A stretch of DNA of 11,134 bases from Nautiliaceae bacterium (GTDB taxonomy: Bacteria; Campylobacterota; Campylobacteria; Campylobacterales; Nautiliaceae). Shown in pieces: positions 1 through 11,134 of the stretch (positions within the stretch are counted from its first letter, which is position 1; each line of letters opens with the position of its first letter). The stretch lies in NCBI GenBank assembly GCA_027063075.1, contig JAMOSM010000092.1:1-11134 (forward strand), read 5' to 3'. Both the position numbers and the translations under genes were made by a program. The notes under the pieces were generated by a model. It was not told where the DNA came from and did no database searches. It saw only the letters and a list, made by a program, of their open reading frames with translations.

Positions 1-1085
1 CTTATCATAGTATTTTCCTGAGTATCAGGCGGCATATCTCTGTCTGAGTTTAACTGAGTTAAATCTTTAAAGGCACTGATACGCGGATTAATATTTAAAA
101 TAATCTCTCCACTGTCACTTATCTGAGGGGTAATATCTAAAAGAACCCCTACAAATTTATTACCAATTGTATAAGATGTAGTGGGATTTCCGTTGTTGTC
201 GGTAGTTACAGAAGACGCATATTTGTAATAAATAGTATTTCCTACTTTAATCAGTGCTTTTTGATTGTTTAAAGTTACAATTTTAGGATTAGAAACTGAA
301 TTTACATTTCCAAACTGTGCTAAAAAATTTACAAAAGCCCCGATATTAAACGTAGTAGAATTAAAAACAGAATTTGAGCCTAAAATATTGCTTGCTCTTA
401 AAGGTACATCGGTATTAGGCAAAGATAAAGAAAGAGAACTCCAGTCAATCCCTGTTTTATGAGATTTCGAAAGGGTCACACTGTAAATTTTAACATCTAT
501 TAAAACTTCTTTGTGAAGTCTGTTGTTTAAATCGTTTATATATTTTCTCACTTCTTCTATCTGATTTACATTTCCTGTAACTGTTACTAAACCTGAATTT
601 TTGTCTATTATAGGGTCTTTGTAATCTCGGCTTACATTTTTTAAAATCTGTATAATATTGTTTTTCAAATTATCCCAGAAATTAAACTTGTAATCCGTTT
701 TTACAGTATTATCATTAGAATCTATATTAGTAACCCCCTGTATTGAATTTGGAATAAAGTCTATTTTAAAAATTTCTGTTTTATAATAAGAGACTATAAG
801 TCTATTAGCTTTTAACGTATAAAAAAGATGAGCGCTTTGAAAGACTGTATCTAAAAGCTCTTTTAAAGGCACATTATTTAAATTTATAAAAGAAACAGTC
901 TCATTCAAAAGCTTTTTTGCTTTATTATCCTTAACTACAATATTTAATCCGCATCTATGAACTAAATCGCTTAAAATAGTGCTTAAAGGCGTAGGATTAA
1001 CAATAAAAAGGTTAAACAGCTGCTTTTCACATTTTGTGGCAAAAACAATTGACGTTATAAAAAAAAGTATGACAATCTTCTTCAT
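1..1085 (-). CDS. mshL: MshL-like outer-membrane secretin, 3' end cut by window edge
   Basis: N-terminal 361 codons of a secretin, the outer-membrane channel through which a type IV (MSHA-type) pilus passes. A signal peptide covers about residues 1-16 (MKK, hydrophobic core, then FATK). An STN-like small domain follows at about 22-100, with Cys19 and Cys45 as a possible disulfide. An N-domain at about 140-185 includes SGLVTVTGNVNQIEEVRKYI. The secretin core begins near 192 (HKEVLIDVKIYSVTLS). The family-typical SNPKIVTLNNQKALIKVG lies at 265-282 and GVLLDITPQIS at 313-323. The ATG overlaps the mshK stop (ATGA), with AAGG 7 nt upstream, so translation is probably coupled. The missing part should hold the rest of the beta-barrel. 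It has three N-X-S/T sites and none with an acidic -2 residue. The MshL label rests on the neighbouring MshI/J/K-like genes; PilQ is the close alternative. Confidence 0.88.
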   Translation of the reverse strand, partial: MKKIVILFFITSIVFATKCEKQLFNLFIVNPTPLSTILSDLVHRCGLNIVVKDNKAKKLLNETVSFINLNNVPLKELLDTVFQSAHLFYTLKANRLIVSYYKTEIFKIDFIPNSIQGVTNIDSNDNTVKTDYKFNFWDNLKNNIIQILKNVSRDYKDPIIDKNSGLVTVTGNVNQIEEVRKYINDLNNRLHKEVLIDVKIYSVTLSKSHKTGIDWSSLSLSLPNTDVPLRASNILGSNSVFNSTTFNIGAFVNFLAQFGNVNSVSNPKIVTLNNQKALIKVGNTIYYKYASSVTTDNNGNPTTSYTIGNKFVGVLLDITPQISDSGEIILNINPRISAFKDLTQLNSDRDMPPDTQENTMI

Positions 1086-1450
1086 TTCCCTACCTTCAAA
1101 ACTTTATAATTAAATGTTAAAATCTTTTTTTTGCCGTTTTTTTTCAAAATAACTCTATTGTTAGTAATTTTTACTATTTTATATCCTTCTATTTCATCAT
1201 CCTCTTTTAACCAAATTCCATTTATATTAACCTTGTCTAAAAAAATAGCATAAACAGTAAGTTTTTTGTCAAACACAACCCTTTTTTTTTGTTTTTTTTC
1301 AATATTATTAAATTTTGAAACAAAAATATTATAATCTATAAAAGGTTTGAATTTAGGCTTATACTCTTCTATCTGTTTAATTACACTAATAACATATGAA
1401 ATATCGGCATATAAAAAAACGGCAAAAACAAAAATTAATAAAACTCTCAT
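1082..1450 (-). CDS. mshK: MshK/PilP-like periplasmic pilus assembly protein
   Basis: A 122-residue exported protein, probably the periplasmic link between the inner-membrane platform and the MshL secretin. The N-terminus is a short signal sequence (MRVLLIFVFAVFLYA, with likely cleavage before Asp16). The C-terminal half (about 64-115) has the PilP/GspC homology-region pattern: V-N-I-N-G-I-W-L-K-E-D-D-E-I followed by V-K-I-T-N-N-R-V-I-L-K. I chose the ATG at 1450 rather than one four codons upstream because GGAG lies 6 nt before it and the signal sequence begins at once. This ATG overlaps the mshJ stop as ATGA, and the gene's own stop overlaps the mshL start in the same way. The coding strand has four A8-A9 runs, possible slippage sites. 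MshK families diverge strongly, so the name rests on the domain plus position between mshJ and mshL. Confidence 0.75.
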   Translation of the reverse strand: MRVLLIFVFAVFLYADISYVISVIKQIEEYKPKFKPFIDYNIFVSKFNNIEKKQKKRVVFDKKLTVYAIFLDKVNINGIWLKEDDEIEGYKIVKITNNRVILKKNGKKKILTFNYKVLKVGK

Positions 1451-2037
1451 ATTAAACTCCAAAAAGAGAGTATTATTTTAAATAAAACTTTATCCTCTTT
1501 TACTTCTAAAGTAACAAAACTTACAGATTTAATTTTTTTAATCTTATCTAAACTTCTCAAAAAGGAATAAAAATTCTTATACTCATTTACATTAAATTCC
1601 CCGTTTATTTCAATATTATATGATAACAAATCATTTGAAGACATTGTTATTTTATAAGAAGCTTTCATATTGTAATCTATTGCATTAGAAAGAATTTCTT
1701 CTAAAATATTTAAAAACTGCTTCTGGCTTAAATGCAGTATAGAAGAGGTTGAAATCAGTAAATTCAGATACTTTAAATCTTCCTGAAGGGCAAAATTTTC
1801 TTTTTGAAGAGTTTTTAACATTTTCTTATATATTTCAATTTTTGAGGCATAAGAGCTTAACTCTTTTAATTTGCTGTGCATTTTAGAGATTTTTATTTCA
1901 TTCTCTTCAATCTGTTCTTTTAAAGAGATATTTATATTATAATACAAAATAAAAGCACCTATAAATAATGAAAAATATAAAAGAAAAAGATTTTTTTTAT
2001 CTAATTTATCAAAAAAAGAATCTATTTTATTCATCAT
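1447..2037 (-). CDS. mshJ: MshJ/PilO-like inner-membrane pilus assembly protein
   Basis: A 196-residue bitopic protein. A short cytoplasmic N-terminus is followed by a transmembrane helix (about 17-33, NLFLLYFSLFIGAFILYY). Next come a long charged coiled coil (about 38-90, rich in E, K, I and L) and a small C-terminal alpha/beta domain (about 110-196). This is the layout of PilO, GspM and MshJ, which partner PilN/MshI in the inner-membrane alignment complex. The gene starts inside the end of mshI (11-nt overlap). Two consecutive ATG codons (2037 and 2034) are possible, with AAGG 6 or 9 nt upstream. Its TGA stop overlaps the mshK ATG. The sequence is too divergent to identify alone; the assignment rests on topology and on the I-J-K-L order. 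Confidence 0.72.
   Translation of the reverse strand: MMNKIDSFFDKLDKKNLFLLYFSLFIGAFILYYNINISLKEQIEENEIKISKMHSKLKELSSYASKIEIYKKMLKTLQKENFALQEDLKYLNLLISTSSILHLSQKQFLNILEEILSNAIDYNMKASYKITMSSNDLLSYNIEINGEFNVNEYKNFYSFLRSLDKIKKIKSVSFVTLEVKEDKVLFKIILSFWSLI
1457..1460 (-). promoter_or_regulatory. Shine-Dalgarno site of mshK
   Basis: GGAG, 6 nt before the ATG at 1450. It decides between this start and the in-frame ATG at 1462, which would precede the ribosome site and add MEFN before the signal peptide. Confidence 0.65.
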
Positions 2038-3457
2038 AGCTTACCTTAGAGAGATAAACTTCTTTATCGTTTAAAATTTCAGAAGAATCAATATTTTTAT
2101 ATCCTAACTTACTTAAAGCCTTTAAAAATCTTGCTATCTGATATGAATTATCAAACGTAGTTGCCACAATTATTTCAACATGCCTGTCTTTCTTGTAAAA
2201 AGAAGAAATTTTTAAATGATACTTGTTTAATAAAAATACCAAATCAGCCATAATATTAGAAAAAGGAGATTGTTGTTGAATATTTTTTAGCAGTAACACC
2301 TTTTGATAAACATCATCAATCTGACCTTGAATATTGCTGTTTATCTCTTTTAACTTCGCTATTCTTTCTTTATACTTTTTTACTTTAATACGTATTAATT
2401 TAATTTCTTTTTGTTTAAGTTTTAACTTTTTTTCAAGAAAAGCTATTTTTTTTTCTTGATTCAGCAGCATTTGATATTTTATAAAAGCATCTGCAAGAAT
2501 AATTAAACTCACTACTCCTAAAGTAATAAAAAACACTCCGCTTTTTCTTCGGTAAAAAGGAAGAGGTCTTATAAAAATAGAAAAGTTCTCTTTTTCATTT
2601 TTGTAATGTTTTGAATTATAAATTAAAGCCGTATAATCAAAATAGTCATAATCCGTAGCAATTTCATATCTGTTAAACTCTATACCGCTAAATTCCCAAA
2701 AACCTTTATAATTTTCTATTAAATAAGGAATCTTAAAAGAAGAGTAAAAATAAATTCTCTCTATTTTAGAAAAAGAGTAATAGTTTATAGAATAATTAAT
2801 TAAATTATTAACTTTCATAAAAAACTGAGAGAAAAAGTTTTCTATTTTAAAATAAGTATTTTCATCTTCATATTTCTCTTTATTAAGTCCTTTTTCGCTT
2901 AAAATATTGATTAGCTCATCAATATCAACTCCTATTTCTTTTGCTAAAACAGAAAGTTTATTTAAACTCTTAACAAAAACAAACTTCCCTTCCCTAAAAC
3001 AGCTCATAAAAGATTCTTCTTTATCTAAATATATAAACACATCATTTTTAGGAGTAATGTTTTTTATCTCATAAAAAGCTTCAAAAGCAAAAGGTTTAAA
3101 ACTTATAAAATCTATATATTTGAATATTTTTATATATTTATCAAACTCTTTTTTTAAGACATTAACCTCAACAACAAAAGCATCTATATGATAAAACTCA
3201 CCTAAATCCTGATAAACATATATAATTTTATACTCTTTTGTATAATCTAAAGAGGCTTCATTAAAAAGATATCTCTCAACTTCTATATCAAGCATTTCTT
3301 CTTCTATATCTTTAGCAAGTTTAAAAGATATGCTTAATACATTTTTATATCCTAAAGAAGCGGTAACAATTCCTTTTTTATAAGAAAGTTCTTTTCTAAC
3401 AACCCTTCCGTTTTCATAAATATACAAATAATCATCGGTTACATAAAGTATTCTCAC
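2027..3457 (-). CDS. mshI: MshI-like pilus assembly protein (PilM/PilN-type)
   Basis: A 476-residue protein with a cytoplasmic N-terminal region (1-300). It fits the degenerate actin-like PilM/GspL fold, starting RILYVTDDYLYIYENGRVV and containing alternating hydrophobic strands. One transmembrane helix follows (about 307-326, SGVFFITLGVVSLIILADAF), then a long Lys/Glu coiled coil (about 331-392) and a small periplasmic ferredoxin-like PilN domain (about 395-470). This PilM-plus-PilN arrangement is what MshI carries in MSHA systems. It should sit in the inner membrane with MshJ. Translation starts at GTG, 4 nt after a strong AAGGAG that overlaps the stop of the preceding pseudopilin gene, leaving a 9-nt gap. 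Asn-Ile-Thr and similar sites occur, but none has an acidic residue at -2. I cannot tell by eye whether nucleotide binding is retained. Confidence 0.75.
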   Translation of the reverse strand: MRILYVTDDYLYIYENGRVVRKELSYKKGIVTASLGYKNVLSISFKLAKDIEEEMLDIEVERYLFNEASLDYTKEYKIIYVYQDLGEFYHIDAFVVEVNVLKKEFDKYIKIFKYIDFISFKPFAFEAFYEIKNITPKNDVFIYLDKEESFMSCFREGKFVFVKSLNKLSVLAKEIGVDIDELINILSEKGLNKEKYEDENTYFKIENFFSQFFMKVNNLINYSINYYSFSKIERIYFYSSFKIPYLIENYKGFWEFSGIEFNRYEIATDYDYFDYTALIYNSKHYKNEKENFSIFIRPLPFYRRKSGVFFITLGVVSLIILADAFIKYQMLLNQEKKIAFLEKKLKLKQKEIKLIRIKVKKYKERIAKLKEINSNIQGQIDDVYQKVLLLKNIQQQSPFSNIMADLVFLLNKYHLKISSFYKKDRHVEIIVATTFDNSYQIARFLKALSKLGYKNIDSSEILNDKEVYLSKVSYDE

Positions 3458-3461
3458 TAAG

Positions 3462-3467
3462 CTCCTT
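3462..3467 (-). promoter_or_regulatory. Shine-Dalgarno site setting the GTG start of mshI
   Basis: AAGGAG, 4 nt upstream of GTG at 3457 and overlapping by one base the TAA of the preceding pseudopilin gene. It is one of the strongest ribosome sites in the run, and it may let mshI-L be translated at a rate partly independent of the pilin genes. Confidence 0.75.
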
Positions 3468-3922
3468 TACTTTATAGCGCCTGTTAAAGGATAAAGAGTA
3501 ATATTTCTCTCTTCGTTTCTAAAATTTAATTTAATTATAATATAATTATGTAGTAAATTTGTCAAATTATCATCAACTTCTCCATCAAAAACCCTGCCAA
3601 TTTCATCAAAACAGACAGTATTTCCATTTTTAAGCCCATATACACTTATATCAGACTTAAACTTATATTTTTCAACATTAGTTTTTGAGGTAATATTTTC
3701 ATCTTTATTCAATTCATCTTTAGAAAAAGTTATACAGGTTAAATTATTTTTTCCTGTATAATAATACCCTAAAGCATTTGACTTTTTATTTAAGATTTTT
3801 TGAGCCAAAACCTTTGTATCCATATCTAATGTGTTATTAGGAATATACTCAAACCCTACAAAAGTTAAAACTCCCATAATGACTATTACAAAAATAAGCT
3901 CTAAAAGAGTAAAAGCCTTCAT
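3467..3922 (-). CDS. Type IV prepilin-like protein (pseudopilin), 151 aa
   Basis: A class III signal is clear: a three-residue leader MKA, then FTLLELIFVIVIMGVL, with Glu at mature position 5 and about 20 hydrophobic residues forming the pilin helix. Ala rather than the classical Gly sits at -1 of the predicted prepilin peptidase site. The remainder (about 30-151) is a small globular domain with two cysteines (Cys63, Cys104) that could pair. The length suits a minor pilin of MshC/MshD or GspH type, and a major-pilin role cannot be excluded. It has five N-X-S/T sites, three with D or E at -2 (Asn76, Asn119, Asn140). The ATG directly abuts the stop of the 146-aa gene with no clear Shine-Dalgarno, which suggests coupled translation. 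MshI starts 9 nt downstream. Confidence 0.85.
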   Translation of the reverse strand: MKAFTLLELIFVIVIMGVLTFVGFEYIPNNTLDMDTKVLAQKILNKKSNALGYYYTGKNNLTCITFSKDELNKDENITSKTNVEKYKFKSDISVYGLKNGNTVCFDEIGRVFDGEVDDNLTNLLHNYIIIKLNFRNEERNITLYPLTGAIK

Positions 3923-4363
3923 TTACGGTCTTTGAAGAGTAATTTTTTCAAGTCTTATCCTTTTTTTAAAAATACTTAAATTATTTTCCACAACAATCTT
4001 TAAAACAACATATCCGTCAGAAAAAGGAGTTTCAATGCTCTTAACCAAAGAAGCATCGCTACAACCGCAGTCTCCGTTGTAACAATAATACCTGAGCACA
4101 GTTACATTTGCTTCAAATTTTTTATCGCTGTCTGTAAAATGAATATATTTTAAACAGTTTCCATTTTTTTTTCTGTCATATCCTTCAATAGCCAAAAGGG
4201 CGTTTTCAATTGCACTTTGCATAAAAAGCTCGCCTCTTTCAATTAAATAAGTATCACTTGTATGTTTAGCACTCACAAACGCAAATTTTGCAACAACAAC
4301 TAAAAGAGTAGAAACCAAAAGCATAACAATCAAAGCGGAAATAAGCCCAAACGCCTTTTTCAA
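3923..4363 (-). CDS. PilX/GspK-like minor pilin lacking Glu5, 146 aa
   Basis: The N-terminus MKKA then FGLISALIVMLLVSTLLVVVA is a type III signal and pilin helix. Mature position 5 is Ser instead of the near-universal Glu. Loss of Glu5 is a known trait of PilX_N and GspK-type minor pilins, which sit at the pilus tip, so I infer a tip-initiating role. The globular part has four cysteines (70, 94, 99, 101), three of them in a tight Y-C-Y-N-G-D-C-G-C cluster, suggesting disulfides or metal binding. Both N-X-S/T sites (Asn86, Asn128) have acidic -2 residues. Translation starts at TTG (4363), whose TTGA overlaps the stop of the 317-aa gene. AAAAGG lies 7 nt upstream. The next gene's ATG immediately follows the TAA stop. 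Confidence 0.8.
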   Translation of the reverse strand: MKKAFGLISALIVMLLVSTLLVVVAKFAFVSAKHTSDTYLIERGELFMQSAIENALLAIEGYDRKKNGNCLKYIHFTDSDKKFEANVTVLRYYCYNGDCGCSDASLVKSIETPFSDGYVVLKIVVENNLSIFKKRIRLEKITLQRP

Positions 4364-5313
4364 AATGCAACCTTTTGTTTTGATACGGTAATATTTATAT
4401 CACCTCTTTTTTTATTTAGCGTTATTTTAATTTCAAGATGGGAATTCACTTTTTTTACCCTAAAAGCCTTTATATTAAACCCTAAAACACTTACATTACC
4501 TTCAGGCTCCCCATAACTGTCTGCGCAAAAAGTCTCTTTAAGCCAAGGTCTATAATTATAAAATAAAAAAAGAGTATCATTAATTTCATTTAAAGGTATA
4601 TTTAAATTTTTTATACAATCAGCAGATGTGTTAATATCCTCCCCTCTTGCAACAGCGTAAGCGCTATCTACTAAATAAAATTTCTCATAAATATCCCCGC
4701 TGTCAATATGAAGCTTTAAAAATGTATCATTATTTAAAGTGCTGTTTTTTTCAAAAGTATATACAAGTTTGTGTTCGTTGTTGTGCCATCCAAAAGAGTT
4801 ATTATAATCTGTTAAAGCACCCTCTTCTCCCCTGTCAAAACTTCCGGCAAAAACAATAGCACTGCTTTGATTTAAATCTTTATTAAAATTAAATTTATTA
4901 TTAACAATCACTTCTATAAAAGAATAATTAAAATCAAGACATTTAATAAGTTTATTTTTTTTATTACTTGCGTATAAATCTATAAATCCGCTTAAATTAA
5001 GTTCTTTCATAGCATCGTTTTCGTATCCAATCCATTCAAGAATTTTATATTTATCCGGGTCGTCAATATCACCTATATATTTAAAATCCCCTTTACCGTC
5101 GTAACCTATAGTGCTTAAAGGAACTCTGTAATAAAGCCTTCTTGATAATTCATCCAAAATCTGCTGAGAAGTAAATTCAAATTCGGCTGTTTTTTGTGCA
5201 ATAAAATTTCTGACATATAATTTACTTATAATCTGAAATCCGCCTATTAACAAAAAACTAAGAATTACTATTACAAAAATAGCTTCAATTAAAGTAAAAC
5301 TTCTTTTCACCAT
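4360..5313 (-). CDS. PilW/GspJ-like large minor pilin, 317 aa
   Basis: The prepilin signal is MVKRS then FTLIEAIFVIVILSFLLIGG, with Glu5 present and Ser at the -1 site. The length, about twice that of the other pilins here, matches the PilW, GspJ and MshO group of large minor pilins. The ectodomain (about 35-317) has three cysteines (125, 233, 263). Nine of its ten N-X-S/T sites carry D or E at -2 (Asn106, 129, 148, 171, 190, 228, 245, 273, 308), the densest set among the pilins here. The ATG lies inside the end of the 205-aa gene (7-nt overlap), so translation is probably coupled. A GTG one codon later would also give a valid leader. No strong Shine-Dalgarno is visible. A minor-pilin role is well supported; the exact orthologue is not. 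Confidence 0.82.
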   Translation of the reverse strand: MVKRSFTLIEAIFVIVILSFLLIGGFQIISKLYVRNFIAQKTAEFEFTSQQILDELSRRLYYRVPLSTIGYDGKGDFKYIGDIDDPDKYKILEWIGYENDAMKELNLSGFIDLYASNKKNKLIKCLDFNYSFIEVIVNNKFNFNKDLNQSSAIVFAGSFDRGEEGALTDYNNSFGWHNNEHKLVYTFEKNSTLNNDTFLKLHIDSGDIYEKFYLVDSAYAVARGEDINTSADCIKNLNIPLNEINDTLFLFYNYRPWLKETFCADSYGEPEGNVSVLGFNIKAFRVKKVNSHLEIKITLNKKRGDINITVSKQKVAF

Positions 5314-5924
5314 CTTACTTTATTTATTTTTATATGTCCAATGTTTGCACTGTAATAAGAAACACTTGATATATTCTTATCTTTAGTGGAAATTGTAATA
5401 TAAATTCTTTTTATGTTTGTTTTGTTATTATCCATTTTAGATGTAAAATTAAAACTCAAATTTCTATTATGATACGCATTCCACTCATCTGTATAACCAA
5501 CCCTTATTTTTAAAACATAAAGAGTATGACCAAAAGAGAGATTTTCCTCAACTCCGTTATAACCCTCAATATAGTCATACTCTCCACTCTCATTTAAAGG
5601 AATATCGCTTTCTATTATTTTATTTTTACAGTTCCTGCTTCCTATAAATCCACCCATCCGATATCCCGTAGAATCGTTACAGTCAAGAATATTTTCAGCA
5701 GGATTGTGTGCTAATAAAATATCGTCATACAAAGTATTGTTATAATCATATTCCTTAAGGGAAATATCCATCATTTTTGCCATCATATTAAAAACCGCAT
5801 CCTCTTTTTTTGAAAATTTAAGAGATTCGTTGCTTACATAAATAATTCTTGGAATAACGCTAAAAACAACTGCAATAATAACTATTGTAAAAATCAGTTC
5901 AATCAGTGTTAAAGCGTTTTTCAC
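5307..5924 (-). CDS. Type IV prepilin-like protein (minor pilin), 205 aa
   Basis: The leader MKNA precedes LTLIELIFTIVIIAVVFSVIP, a pilin helix with Glu5. The mature first residue would be Leu instead of Phe, and Ala is at -1. The globular domain (about 35-205) has Cys82 and Cys99. It has nine N-X-S/T sites, five with acidic -2 residues (Asn62, 83, 128, 167, 184). Its size and position at the head of the pilin cluster fit MshD, PilV or GspI-like minor pilins; I do not recognise the exact orthologue. Translation starts at GTG, one base after the prfB TGA. An overlapping ATG at 5926 is ruled out because its next codon is a stop. Only a weak AAAGAG-like ribosome site is present, so it probably depends on ribosomes finishing prfB. 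Confidence 0.83.
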   Translation of the reverse strand: MKNALTLIELIFTIVIIAVVFSVIPRIIYVSNESLKFSKKEDAVFNMMAKMMDISLKEYDYNNTLYDDILLAHNPAENILDCNDSTGYRMGGFIGSRNCKNKIIESDIPLNESGEYDYIEGYNGVEENLSFGHTLYVLKIRVGYTDEWNAYHNRNLSFNFTSKMDNNKTNIKRIYITISTKDKNISSVSYYSANIGHIKINKVRW

Positions 5925-7906: not shown

Positions 7907-8866
7907 TTGAAAAAGGCACTTATCTTTATTTTGGCTATAAGTTTCACATATGCGGATATTTTTGATACTTACCGGTATGAAGGAATAAAACCTGCAATAG
8001 AATTGATTGAAAAGCAGCTTCAGTCAAAAGAATTCTGGCTTAAAAAATTACAAAACAAAAATGTAAAACTCGGGTATTTCGAAAATAAAAGCTTTATTCT
8101 TTTTTGTAATAAACTAAGCAAAAATTTAGATGTTTATTCTTATAATAATGGAAAACTTGCAAAAATAAAAACCTTTACAAACCTGATTGTAGGAAAACTT
8201 GGAGACAAACAAAAAGAAGGGGATTTAAAAACCCCTATAGGAAATTATACCTTAATAAATAAAATTATTCCCTCAAACACCTTTTACGGACCCCTGGCAT
8301 TTGTAACATCATACCCTAACCTTTTTGACAAACTTCATAAAAAAAACGGATATGGAATCTGGATACACGGAAAACCGCTTGATGGAGAGAGGGGGGATTT
8401 AAGCAAAGGCTGCATCGTATTAGAAAACAGCGATATTTTATATCTAAATAAAATCATTAATTATAAAAACACAATTTTAGAAATAACCCAAACACCTCTA
8501 TATGCAAAAAAAGAGGACATAGCCTCAATCTTAGCAACCCTTTACAAATGGAGATGGGCTTGGCAAAACAGCGATTTTGACAAATACATATCATTTTATG
8601 CAAAAGATTTTCATCGCTCAGACGGAAGCGATTTAGAGAGCTTTAAAGAATATAAAAAAAGAGTGTTTAAAAAAAGGAAAAATCAAAATATAAAGATATT
8701 TTTTAAAGATATTCAAATTACCCCTTATCAAAACCTCAAAAACCTACCCATTTATAAAATTAATTTTTATGAAGAATATTACGCACCAGATTATACGTTT
8801 AAAGGAAAAAAAGAGATATATATGACAAAAAAAGGGGATAAATTTAAAATTATTATAGAAAAATAA
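7907..8866 (+). CDS. csd6: Csd6/Pgp2-like L,D-carboxypeptidase (YkuD fold)
   Basis: A 319-residue exported protein. A signal peptide (MKKALIFILAISFTYA, about 1-16) precedes an N-terminal helical region. A YkuD L,D-transpeptidase domain (about 52-195) has GDLKTPIGNY (105-114), a YGPLAFVTSYPNLFDKL segment and the catalytic motif WIHG to SKGCIVLEN, with His154 and Cys169. A C-terminal NTF2-like domain (about 203-319) follows. This three-part layout is that of Helicobacter Csd6 and Campylobacter Pgp2 (an alternative symbol). These trim peptidoglycan tetrapeptides to tripeptides and are needed for helical cell shape; Csd6 has also been linked to flagellin deglycosylation. The cell may therefore be curved, which is an inference. 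It starts with TTG after AAGGAG. Its TAA stop abuts the stop of the convergent gene with no spacer. It has one N-X-S site, with no acidic -2 residue. Confidence 0.88.
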   Translation: MKKALIFILAISFTYADIFDTYRYEGIKPAIELIEKQLQSKEFWLKKLQNKNVKLGYFENKSFILFCNKLSKNLDVYSYNNGKLAKIKTFTNLIVGKLGDKQKEGDLKTPIGNYTLINKIIPSNTFYGPLAFVTSYPNLFDKLHKKNGYGIWIHGKPLDGERGDLSKGCIVLENSDILYLNKIINYKNTILEITQTPLYAKKEDIASILATLYKWRWAWQNSDFDKYISFYAKDFHRSDGSDLESFKEYKKRVFKKRKNQNIKIFFKDIQITPYQNLKNLPIYKINFYEEYYAPDYTFKGKKEIYMTKKGDKFKIIIEK

Positions 8867-11134
8867 CTATCTGAATATTTTTACTCCTTTTTTTGTAGAA
8901 TTTTCTTCAGTAATATTACTCTCTGTTCCTAAGAATTGTCCGCTTCCAACCTCTAAACCGGAAGAAGATGTATTTTCATATGTAATACTAAAACAAAAAT
9001 GGTTCAAACAGCTTGAACCTTCTGAATAGTTGTATTCATTATGAAACTTAGAATACCAAAGCCATTTTAAATTAGGACTCAGAATATGAACCACAGCAAA
9101 ATTTACACCGGAATTTCTTTTTATAGAAATGTTAATCTCTCCGTTTTCAACATCACTGAGATTAATATCAAAATCAGATGTAATATTATTATCAGAAGAA
9201 GCTATATAATCTTTACTTATTAAAATCTCTTTTAAGCTAAAGTTTCCGTCTTTTGCTGAATGTAAAGTGTTTTTGTATAAATTAAATGCAATTTCATCAC
9301 TACTTATTAATAAAGAATCACTTGAGTTTTCATCATAAAATACTAATTTAAAAGAATTGTTTATTTCGTCCCTTTTAGTAATGATATCATCAACCAGCAT
9401 ATATCCGTAATAAAAAATGGCATTTCCATTTTTATCTGCCAAGGTTCTTCCAACACCGTTAGACGAAACATTCACATCCTTTATTGAAATTCTAAAAGGA
9501 TTAGAAAAGAATGATAAATTTCTATCAAAATTTAAAAACACTTTTGCAAAGGTAGAACCGTTATTGTCTGTATTAAATTCACTTAAATTATATTCAAAAC
9601 TTACAAACCCTTTATTATTTAAAAGATTTCTTTCAAAGACAGCTGTTTTGCTATTGTAAATATCTTTTATATAAAAAACAGTTTTATTTACCTCAATAGA
9701 CGGATTGTAAAAATTAATATCAAAAGTTATATTAATATCAATATCTTCAGCATAACACTCTTTATTAAAATTTCTAACTGTTTCATTATCTTCATTTTCA
9801 GCCGTAATGTTAATATCAAGAAGAGCATAGATATTTAAATTTTCATCTAAATAAGTAAAATTATCATAATTTTTTAAATTAGCATTTACTTTAAAGTGAT
9901 TAACACTAAACTTAACACCTTCTGCCATAGCTTTTGAAATAAACCTATTATCTAAACTTACATTGTCTTTTGAATCAGTAATAGCAAATTCACTTCCATT
10001 CACCTCTAAAACAGTTATATTAACATCCCCTATCTCCGAATATTTTAAAGTTACATTTGCTTCTCCATCTTTAAACTCTCCGCCTTTTACAATACTCAAA
10101 ACCCCTTTTAAACATCCACTTTTTGTTTCATTAAACTCTATTTTAGGAGAAACACTAAGGGATAAAGTTTCATTATAATCCTTTGCAGGATTAGACTCAG
10201 CATCTAAAGCCTTAACAGTTATATTAAATTCACTGCCTGCACTAATAGCAGAAGGAATGTTAGTAATTAAAAACTTATCAGGCCTTATGGCAAATGTATC
10301 ACTTGAATTTGTTTCATTTATATCTTCGCTAACAGGACAGCTTTCATTTACATCCTTTTTCCAAAGAATTTTTACTTTTGCAATTTTTACAGCCCTATCT
10401 ATTTTTATGTTAGTCCAGTTGCTCTCTTCTACATTTTCTAAAAACTCATCCATTTTTTTCCAAGGAGTTAAATTATTGTCATCATTATCAATAATTTCAA
10501 CACAAACAGTCCCGTTAAACTCTTTAAGAGCGCTTTTATTTTCATCATAACTTGCAATAGTCAGATTAAATTCCTCATTTACAATTTTAGTTGAAATATT
10601 TGTTTCATTATAATCGCTGCCTACTTCTCTTGCATCAAACAAAAAGTTAAATTCACAATTAGGACAATTTCTGTTAGTACCGTCTGCATTTTTGCCTTGA
10701 TTTTCATTATTAAAAATATCATATACATCACCGCCGCTTAAAATTCCGTCATATAATTTAACCTCATCCATTATACTTCCAATTGTTTTTTCATCCGAAT
10801 AGTCAGTAGAAGTTCCTATATATTTCACTTTTCCTTTTGTATGAATTCCGATTCTTGTTATTTCTTCAGCATCAATATACAAAATAGTTTCGCTTCCGGT
10901 TGAAACAACCCCTATATGATGCCATCCACTATCTACATTATCTATCTCTTTTTCTTCGGTGTTTCCATTATTATCATAAACTCCAAAATAAAAATTACCG
11001 TTACTTGTATCTTTTGCAAAATAAGCTAAATCCCCATCCCCATCAACACTTCCAAGCACAAAATAGTATTTTCCGCTTATATCTTTGTGATTATCGTCAT
11101 TCAAAGGAAAATTAACCCAACCCACAAAACTCCA
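8867..11134 (-). CDS. MshQ-like LamG/DUF6701 surface protein, N-terminus cut by window edge
   Basis: The C-terminal 755 residues are visible; the frame stays open to the edge, so a GTG at 11125 is not the real start. Residues 1-148 are a LamG/concanavalin-like sandwich (WVNFP, then SGWHHIGVV, YIDAEE, IGSIMDEVKLYDG). A CPNC motif at 157-160 leads into a DUF6701-like region: FLFDAREVG at 164-172, FNGTVCVEIID near 206-216, then IRPDKF at 283-288 and an Ig-like AGSEFNITVKALDA segment. LamG plus DUF6701 is the layout of MshQ, the large last protein of MSHA loci, thought to act at the pilus tip. By hand count 33 of 36 N-X-S/T sites have D or E at -2. It has eight visible cysteines. The signal peptide and promoter lie beyond the right edge. 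No membrane anchor is seen in the visible part. Confidence 0.72.
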   Translation of the reverse strand, partial: WSFVGWVNFPLNDDNHKDISGKYYFVLGSVDGDGDLAYFAKDTSNGNFYFGVYDNNGNTEEKEIDNVDSGWHHIGVVSTGSETILYIDAEEITRIGIHTKGKVKYIGTSTDYSDEKTIGSIMDEVKLYDGILSGGDVYDIFNNENQGKNADGTNRNCPNCEFNFLFDAREVGSDYNETNISTKIVNEEFNLTIASYDENKSALKEFNGTVCVEIIDNDDNNLTPWKKMDEFLENVEESNWTNIKIDRAVKIAKVKILWKKDVNESCPVSEDINETNSSDTFAIRPDKFLITNIPSAISAGSEFNITVKALDAESNPAKDYNETLSLSVSPKIEFNETKSGCLKGVLSIVKGGEFKDGEANVTLKYSEIGDVNITVLEVNGSEFAITDSKDNVSLDNRFISKAMAEGVKFSVNHFKVNANLKNYDNFTYLDENLNIYALLDINITAENEDNETVRNFNKECYAEDIDINITFDINFYNPSIEVNKTVFYIKDIYNSKTAVFERNLLNNKGFVSFEYNLSEFNTDNNGSTFAKVFLNFDRNLSFFSNPFRISIKDVNVSSNGVGRTLADKNGNAIFYYGYMLVDDIITKRDEINNSFKLVFYDENSSDSLLISSDEIAFNLYKNTLHSAKDGNFSLKEILISKDYIASSDNNITSDFDINLSDVENGEINISIKRNSGVNFAVVHILSPNLKWLWYSKFHNEYNYSEGSSCLNHFCFSITYENTSSSGLEVGSGQFLGTESNITEENSTKKGVKIFR
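8894..10615 (-). other. Cluster of 33 bacterial N-glycosylation sequons
   Basis: Numbered from the first visible codon (11134), D/E-X-N-X-S/T sites are at Asn 176, 179, 190, 199, 207, 221, 239, 263, 273, 276, 304, 321, 335, 360, 372, 379, 442, 450, 468, 483, 516, 525, 539, 555, 592, 603, 631, 650, 658, 668, 702, 740 and 745. Only Asn 391, 425 and 721 are N-X-S/T without the acidic -2 residue. The LamG portion (1-148) has no sequon at all. The motif is that of the Campylobacter PglB oligosaccharyltransferase. Glycosylation itself is an inference. Confidence 0.75.

Follow-up and report, generated by a model that had tools for sequence, protein, structure and literature searches.

Dense PglB-type sequons in the stalk of an MshQ-like protein suggest an N-glycosylated MSHA-type pilus in a Nautiliaceae bacterium

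The current analysis describes an MshQ-like protein of a Nautiliaceae bacterium whose stalk is filled with the extended acceptor motif of bacterial N-glycosylation. By far the best reading of the sequences, and one that we hold with considerable confidence, is that PglB would N-glycosylate an MSHA-type pilus in this organism and hyper-glycosylate the stalk of its MshQ protein. The window, i.e. the whole stretch of DNA that was analysed (11,134 nucleotides), is contig C92 of the organism's own draft genome (G000; 1.23 Mb, 70% complete) from base 1 to the last, and the MshQ-like frame at 8867-11134 runs off its end and lacks its 5' end due to the contig edge. The protein and its parts are as follows.

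8867..11134, minus strand: MshQ-like (DUF6701) protein, 755 aa visible, with 36 sequons, 33 of them extended (D/E-X-N-X-S/T)
10724..11077, minus strand: LamG / concanavalin-A-like domain, residues 20-137 (Pfam PF13385, E 6.6e-7), with no sequon
8870..10648, minus strand: stalk, residues 163-755, predicted Ig-like beta-sandwich domains as far as about residue 720, followed by a low-confidence tail
9716..10330, minus strand: PF20419 (DUF6701) stretch, 43.4 bits, profile positions 132-345

The initial annotation had counted by hand 36 N-X-S/T sites (X not Pro) in the 755 residues, 33 of them with Asp or Glu at position -2, and a recount returned exactly these numbers in a protein that is 15.8% Asp plus Glu and 12.3% Asn. 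It had also anticipated an excess over shuffled copies, and this excess is very large: 20,000 residue shuffles of the 755-aa protein, which keep its composition, held 13.8 +/- 3.2 plain sequons (maximum 26) and 2.1 +/- 1.4 extended motifs, never more than 10. As a statistical observation, the excess of the extended motif is certain. The acidic preference is specific to a single position, as each of the other offsets from -8 to +8 of the sequon Asn is acidic in 3-8 of the 36 sites (offset +2, which is Ser/Thr by definition, was left out of the comparison), and among the 57 non-sequon Asn, 10 have an acidic residue at -2. The control motifs [ST]xNx[DE], [DE]xDx[ST], [DE]xKx[ST] and [DE]xSx[ST] each occur 0 times in the window protein (1.3-2.1 expected), and three motifs of shifted spacing are mildly up (5, 7 and 6 versus 2.2 expected each). 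When an acid, Asn and Ser/Thr are set on alternate positions, the order acid-N-S/T accounts for 33 occurrences, versus 0, 2, 5, 6 and 0 for the remaining five; among the 120 matches listed of 173 homologues, the corresponding counts are 3274 versus 284, 271, 488, 707 and 180. Were amphipathic strands the cause, all orders of acid, Asn and Ser/Thr should be similarly frequent, but only acid-N-S/T is strongly enriched. Extended motifs with Pro at +1 are likewise scarce among those 120 matches (8 versus 78 expected). An oligosaccharyltransferase that has the -2 requirement of bacteria follows just these rules of order and Pro avoidance (PMC6025236, PMC4894442).

The same excess, which the initial annotation had looked for in orthologues, recurs in relatives. 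Every one of the 120 matches listed of 173 homologues is enriched at least 3.9-fold, for a total of 3274 extended motifs versus 274 expected. Since the protein search behind these matches favours proteins that share exact words with the query, a set of DUF6701 matches found by HMM was added, and its 23 members, from 18 of 298 genomes, exceed expectation 2.2- to 17-fold, the weakest being those of G287 (5 versus 2.2 expected) and G190 (4 versus 1.3). In a survey of 41 genomes (the organism's own and 40 relatives), a homologue is present at E 1e-3 in 25 and an STT3 match in 33; 29 frames at 29 of the 30 loci of this survey all exceed their expected extended count, in a set preselected for at least eight extended sites, where a frame without excess could not appear (L026, a 153-aa frame, dropped out of the 30 loci). 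A relative whose locus is 61% GC and whose frame is 6.0% Asn still has 14 extended sites versus 0.9 expected. Named homologues among the matches listed belong to Lebetimonas, Nautilia, Caminibacter, Hydrogenimonas, Sulfurospirillum and Sulfuricurvum. A genome-contig scan with the window protein gave no relative, and one with a seven-row alignment gave three loci. Plasmids searched by tblastn with a Lebetimonas homologue gave no match, and a protein search from a GC-rich member, aimed at other phyla, returned 18 proteins, the names shown being only Sulfuricurvum and Campylobacterales. All 18 DUF6701-positive genomes are also STT3-positive, as are 211 of the 298 overall, but this co-occurrence is not independent evidence, since 18 of the 20 STT3-negative genomes listed share one family and the model misses homologues (e.g. 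that of G013). Genome, plasmid and protein searches for an MshQ from a PglB-lacking organism, as a control, found none beyond five draft genomes.

The organism's own genome has a second MshQ-like paralogue (L066 310-4512, G000:C28) of 1401 aa, whose head shows weak similarity to NosD and which carries 41 sequons, 20 of them extended (3.5 expected), and several relatives also have more than one MshQ-like match. Among the homologues, P0038, P0083 and P0093 show a low share of sequons with an acid at -2 (0.28-0.30), which may reflect a PglB of relaxed specificity.

Within the window protein, all 36 sequons lie within residues 163-755, and two of the extended ones fall in the low-confidence tail. 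The initial description needs correcting on this point: the stalk has about one extended site per 18 residues, and residues 1-165 carry none; taken alone, this bareness is weak evidence, because only 2.1 plain and 0.36 extended sequons would be expected there. In a whole-genome profile search, the PF20419 match exceeds its gathering score (43.4 versus 27 bits); hmmscan of the single window frame at E 0.01 reported LamG alone and no DUF6701. Residues 1-146 of the predicted model have jelly-roll fold matches, and those to clostridial neurotoxin binding domains were set aside as a common fold only, with no bearing on toxicity. Compared with the Ig-stalk adhesins invasin, InvD and FdeC, the predicted stalk shows 10-12% identity and an rmsd of 8-11 over multi-domain spans, in a comparison that covered residues 575-723 thinly; this likeness of the model would reflect a common fold, and homology is not claimed. 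Sixteen of the 33 extended sites fall in predicted strands, mostly with hydrophobic residues at -1 and +1 and with the three motif side chains facing one side of the predicted model, and the other 17 lie outside strands.

A comparable partition is evident in the family. Nine of 12 aligned family proteins have a head of more than 60 residues (76-1096 residues). Their stalks carry 22-36 extended sites where 1.1-2.0 would be expected, and their heads 0-10 where 0-2.3 would be; heads with sites include those of G007 (10 versus 1.7 expected), G013 (7 versus 2.3), G015 (5 versus 1.4) and G008 (4 versus 0.9). The Pfam domains beside the stalk vary among the homologues listed and include LamG, pentaxin, beta-helix and PF07691, which we take to be PA14; this variability suggests that heads may be swapped on a conserved, putatively glycosylated stalk. 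The extreme C-terminus (window 8870-8896) reads ...GVKIFR in one group of homologues, whereas the paralogues end in ...KKLNW or a similar string, and this conserved MshQ-like C-terminus might serve to dock a minor pilin.

The window also encodes pilins and pilus machinery, listed here with their extended sequons.

5307..5924, minus strand: pilin-like protein, 205 aa, 9 sequons, 5 extended (0.34 expected)
4360..5313, minus strand: pilin-like protein, 317 aa, 10 sequons, 9 extended (0.39 expected)
3923..4363, minus strand: probable pilin-operon protein, 146 aa, presumably MshP-like, by position only; 2 extended sequons (0.09 expected)
3467..3922, minus strand: pilin-like protein, 151 aa, 5 sequons, 3 extended (0.23 expected)
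1082..3457, minus strand: three pilus machinery genes, the first T2SSB/GspC-like and the other two, by position, presumably MshJ- and MshI-like; 0 extended sequons (0.66 expected together)
3..1085, minus strand: secretin, truncated at the contig end, with MshL as its top NCBIfam match (E 1.7e-45) and no extended sequon (0.57 expected)

The MshL match of the truncated secretin scores 155 bits, below the 250-bit cut-off. The prepilin motif is present in two genes above the TIGR02532 cut-off, is below the cut-off in Pfam, and is called in three genes by rule, where gene calls, export classes and pilin calls all follow simple custom rules. An MSHA operon was recognized by an MshL-like secretin and prepilin genes near an MshQ-like gene, which is what the window holds, and with DUF6701 above its cut-off, the initial assignment of the protein as MshQ-like is upheld. 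The secretin, the three machinery genes, prfB, panC and a csd6-like gene together have no extended sequon (1.9 expected). This csd6-like L,D-transpeptidase gene (YkuD plus Cds6_C) lies at 7907-8866, between mshQ and panC; the same arrangement is found in L214 and L215, and no gene was called between mshQ and panC at the mshQ loci of G007, G010, G011 and G013.

Enriched pilins are also found beyond the window. Sixteen pilin-like frames at six mshQ loci have 53 extended sequons versus 5.85 expected, and the pilin count at PglB-positive loci comes from these six, since eight PglB-positive loci around the best MshL match held no pilins by the same rule. Among pilin-like frames found by homology, 43 from the window's family have 135 versus 10.2 expected and 22 from other families have 42 versus 4.3; the ten pilin frames of G008, G016, G017 and G019, which have no PglB match, have 37 versus 2.6. 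In the control family f9, 27 pilin frames of PglB-lacking genomes have 6 versus 5.96 expected and nine frames of three PglB-positive genomes have 0 versus 1.23, and two pilins of the PglB-positive G033 show no enrichment; PglB alone, then, does not predict glycosylated pilins. The MshL-adjacent loci of 12 PglB-lacking genomes were rejected as a further pilin control, having yielded four false-looking matches (1 versus 0.35 expected). In unselected stretches of the organism's own genome, exported proteins have 13 extended sequons versus 4.3 expected and cytosolic proteins 23 versus 18.6; in those of G007 and G013, exported proteins have 13 versus 9.7 (not significant, and 6 of the 13 in two pilins) and cytosolic proteins 38 versus 53.7, and the exported proteins of G028, which lacks PglB, have 16 versus 14.4. 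The excess in exported proteins is thus modest in general, and the pilus proteins stand out. One further frame of the organism, of 766 aa and running off a contig end (L088 11025-13322, G000:C63), has 15 sequons, 7 of them extended (1.3 expected).

The organism's own genome encodes a PglB homologue, an open frame of 707 aa on contig C142 (G000:C142; STT3, E 1.2e-27) that aligns with C. lari PglB over nearly the whole length (E about 1e-97) and scores 382.7 bits against NCBIfam ProtGlycPglB, below the 1300-bit equivalog cut-off. It keeps all motifs checked (the D, E319, R331, WWDYG and MxxI equivalents), and downstream of it lie a sugar-phosphate transferase, a LegC/PseC-type aminotransferase and a UDP-GlcNAc 4,6-dehydratase-like protein, which we take to resemble pglC, pglE and pglF. 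In C. lari PglB, Arg R331 contacts the acid at -2. Its equivalent is Arg, as in the organism's own enzyme, in all 29 covering sequences of an alignment of 30 (one per genome from the 33 STT3-positive genomes, excluding second copies and G005, G011 and G033, which have no locus); E319 and WWDYG are kept in those 29, the first-motif Asp pair in all 30 and MxxI in 28, the fragments of G018 and G020 stopping short. Such an Arg neither proves nor enforces the minus-two rule, since some relaxed oligosaccharyltransferases retain it, according to the accessible part of one report (PMC4894442). With PglB present in the genome and an excess over shuffles that recurs in relatives, the proposal of selection for dense N-glycosylation gains support. 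Family and protein searches gave no PglB match in G008, G015, G016, G017 and G019, though their MshQ-like proteins are dense; G008 is 96% complete and the other four 57-89%, and we propose that the missing enzymes are gaps of draft genomes. The STT3 match of G011 (G011:C1:803260-804321) contains one stop (TAA), and the MshQ of G011 still has 24 extended sites. On the same contig (G011:C1 1236529-1237153), pilin-like matches lie in frames with TGA or TAA.

The sites themselves appear to be both conserved and renewed. In an alignment of 12 family proteins, of which the G019 row shares the ending of the paralogue group and could itself be a paralogue, some columns carry a site in 9-11 of the 12, and 52 columns have a site in one protein only, a count that misalignment inflates. 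An acid occupies -2 in 285 of 303 sequons in columns shared by at least four proteins, in 33 of 51 in columns shared by two or three, and in 23 of 41 unique ones, where acidic residues make up 14% overall. These shares indicate that descent preserves sites and that new ones tend, if less strongly, to arise with the correct motif. Conservation is higher inside than outside sequons for each of the three motif residues (one-sided P 0.024 for N, 0.00085 for D/E and 0.001 for S/T).

Several other explanations of the motif deserve consideration. An AT-rich protein that is rich in Asn, Asp and Ser could, through beta-strand alternation, yield D-x-N-x-T by chance, and the high Asn content as well as the strand location and hydrophobic flanks of 16 of the 33 sites would be in keeping with such a by-product. 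Shuffles that keep the composition nevertheless never exceeded 10 extended motifs, the excess holds at 61% GC and 6% Asn, and with only hydrophobic residues at -1 and +1 considered, acid-N-S/T is found 11 times versus 0-3 for the other five orders (1101 versus 28-138 among the 120 matches listed of 173). The order controls refute this explanation, to which we assign virtually no weight. It is also conceivable that DUF6701 beta-sandwiches conserve the motif as an element for structure or metal binding that is unrelated to glycans, as might be surmised from the set of sites common to nearly all aligned relatives and from the shared face of the side chains at strand sites. Such an element is very improbable, however, given that regions outside strands, the low-confidence tail and even unrelated pilins have the motif as well, that sites turn over (even if misalignment inflates the 52 one-protein columns) with the acid over-represented at unique sequons, and that Pro is avoided at +1, as an oligosaccharyltransferase requires.

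The remaining alternatives accept glycosylation and differ in its timing or purpose. Sites may have been selected in an ancestor, with glycosylation now partial or lost in some lineages, which would agree with the five same-family relatives that gave no PglB match and with the stop in the match of G011. We regard this as improbable, if a shade less so than a structural element, as the organism's own genome retains an open PglB frame in which every motif checked is present, and the motif residues are better conserved within sequons than elsewhere. A coat that serves recognition (cell-cell or surface binding, phage evasion) or the control of folding and export, rather than shielding, is a possibility to be taken seriously, though we rate it at somewhat less than even. 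In the available part of one source (PMC7064770), the glycosylation patterns of Sulfolobales pili and S-layers are tied to species-specific recognition. The sites of the window protein, by contrast, avoid the putative head and fill the stalk, which fits shielding or stiffening better without being decisive, and the argument is limited by the heads of some relatives, which do carry sites.

Our preferred reading, glycosylation of the pilus by PglB, would operate as follows. In it, the window protein serves an MSHA-type IV pilus as a stalked partner of the MshQ/DUF6701 type that is not itself a pilin. Its relative in G010, the 5' end of which is complete, starts with a hydrophobic segment resembling a signal and is classed as exported by a crude rule, so the MshQ-like protein would probably enter the periplasm, where PglB would transfer a lipid-linked glycan to the Asn of D/E-X-N-X-S/T. 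Selection would have filled the stalk of about 590 residues at the density noted above, and the head of the window copy would have stayed free of sites. Given that the nearby pilins are enriched, with fewer sites, the whole exported filament looks N-glycosylated with MshQ as its densest part, and given that the pattern recurs in relatives, the MshQ-like protein looks like a pilus adhesin whose dense sugar coat has been selected. The sequences themselves show the motif and its direction specificity, its retention through turnover, the PglB of the genome and the head/stalk contrast; from these we infer that the Asn sites would be occupied by glycan, and MshQ presumably sits at the pilus tip. Our leading guess is that the glycan coat shields or stiffens an extracellular stalk and leaves a putative binding head bare; it may also help against heat or proteases, as the initial annotation suggested. 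More broadly, we lean towards the view that the type IV pili of many free-living Campylobacterota are N-glycoprotein filaments made by PglB and led by an MshQ adhesin, that the stalk of this adhesin may be among the most densely N-glycosylated bacterial proteins, and that pilus assembly, not a few scattered periplasmic proteins, would be the main client of PglB there.

If so, MshQ-type proteins and type IV pilins can be named as concrete PglB clients of free-living vent bacteria, hyper-glycosylated pili are predicted and MshQ is given a context, and natural multi-site acceptors become available for work on the glycosylation of a crowded substrate by a single enzyme. Within the literature searched (titles and the beginnings of abstracts, with subscription papers mostly outside it), no PglB glycosylation of MSHA pili or MshQ was found, nor any use of the PglB system in free-living vent bacteria, nor DUF6701. 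Mills et al., cited in PMC6025236, reportedly treated the oligosaccharyltransferases of deep-sea vent organisms in 2016. Campylobacter-type PglB (C. jejuni, C. lari, H. pullorum) shares with the system described here the acceptor motif, given as D/E-X-N-X-S/T in the accessible portion of the H. pullorum study (PMC6025236), as well as the catalytic and -2-contact motifs. The same portion describes six sites over five proteins in H. pullorum, whereas the window protein has 33 in one stalk. The DUF6701 match, the MshL-like secretin and the pilin genes are held in common with MSHA-type systems, and V. cholerae MshQ was listed in 2022 as a pilus component of unknown function in the part of that source available (PMC9815625). 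Dense sequons in MshQ are documented here only in Campylobacterota and in unnamed database relatives. Unlike the bacterial enzyme, the archaeal AglB system is not known to follow an acid rule at -2. The SlaA/SlaB S-layers of Sulfolobus are heavily glycosylated, with O-glycans too, according to the available part of a further source (PMC6911244), and they represent an extracellular structure that is likewise densely coated with glycan, although built of proteins unrelated to the MshQ of the window.
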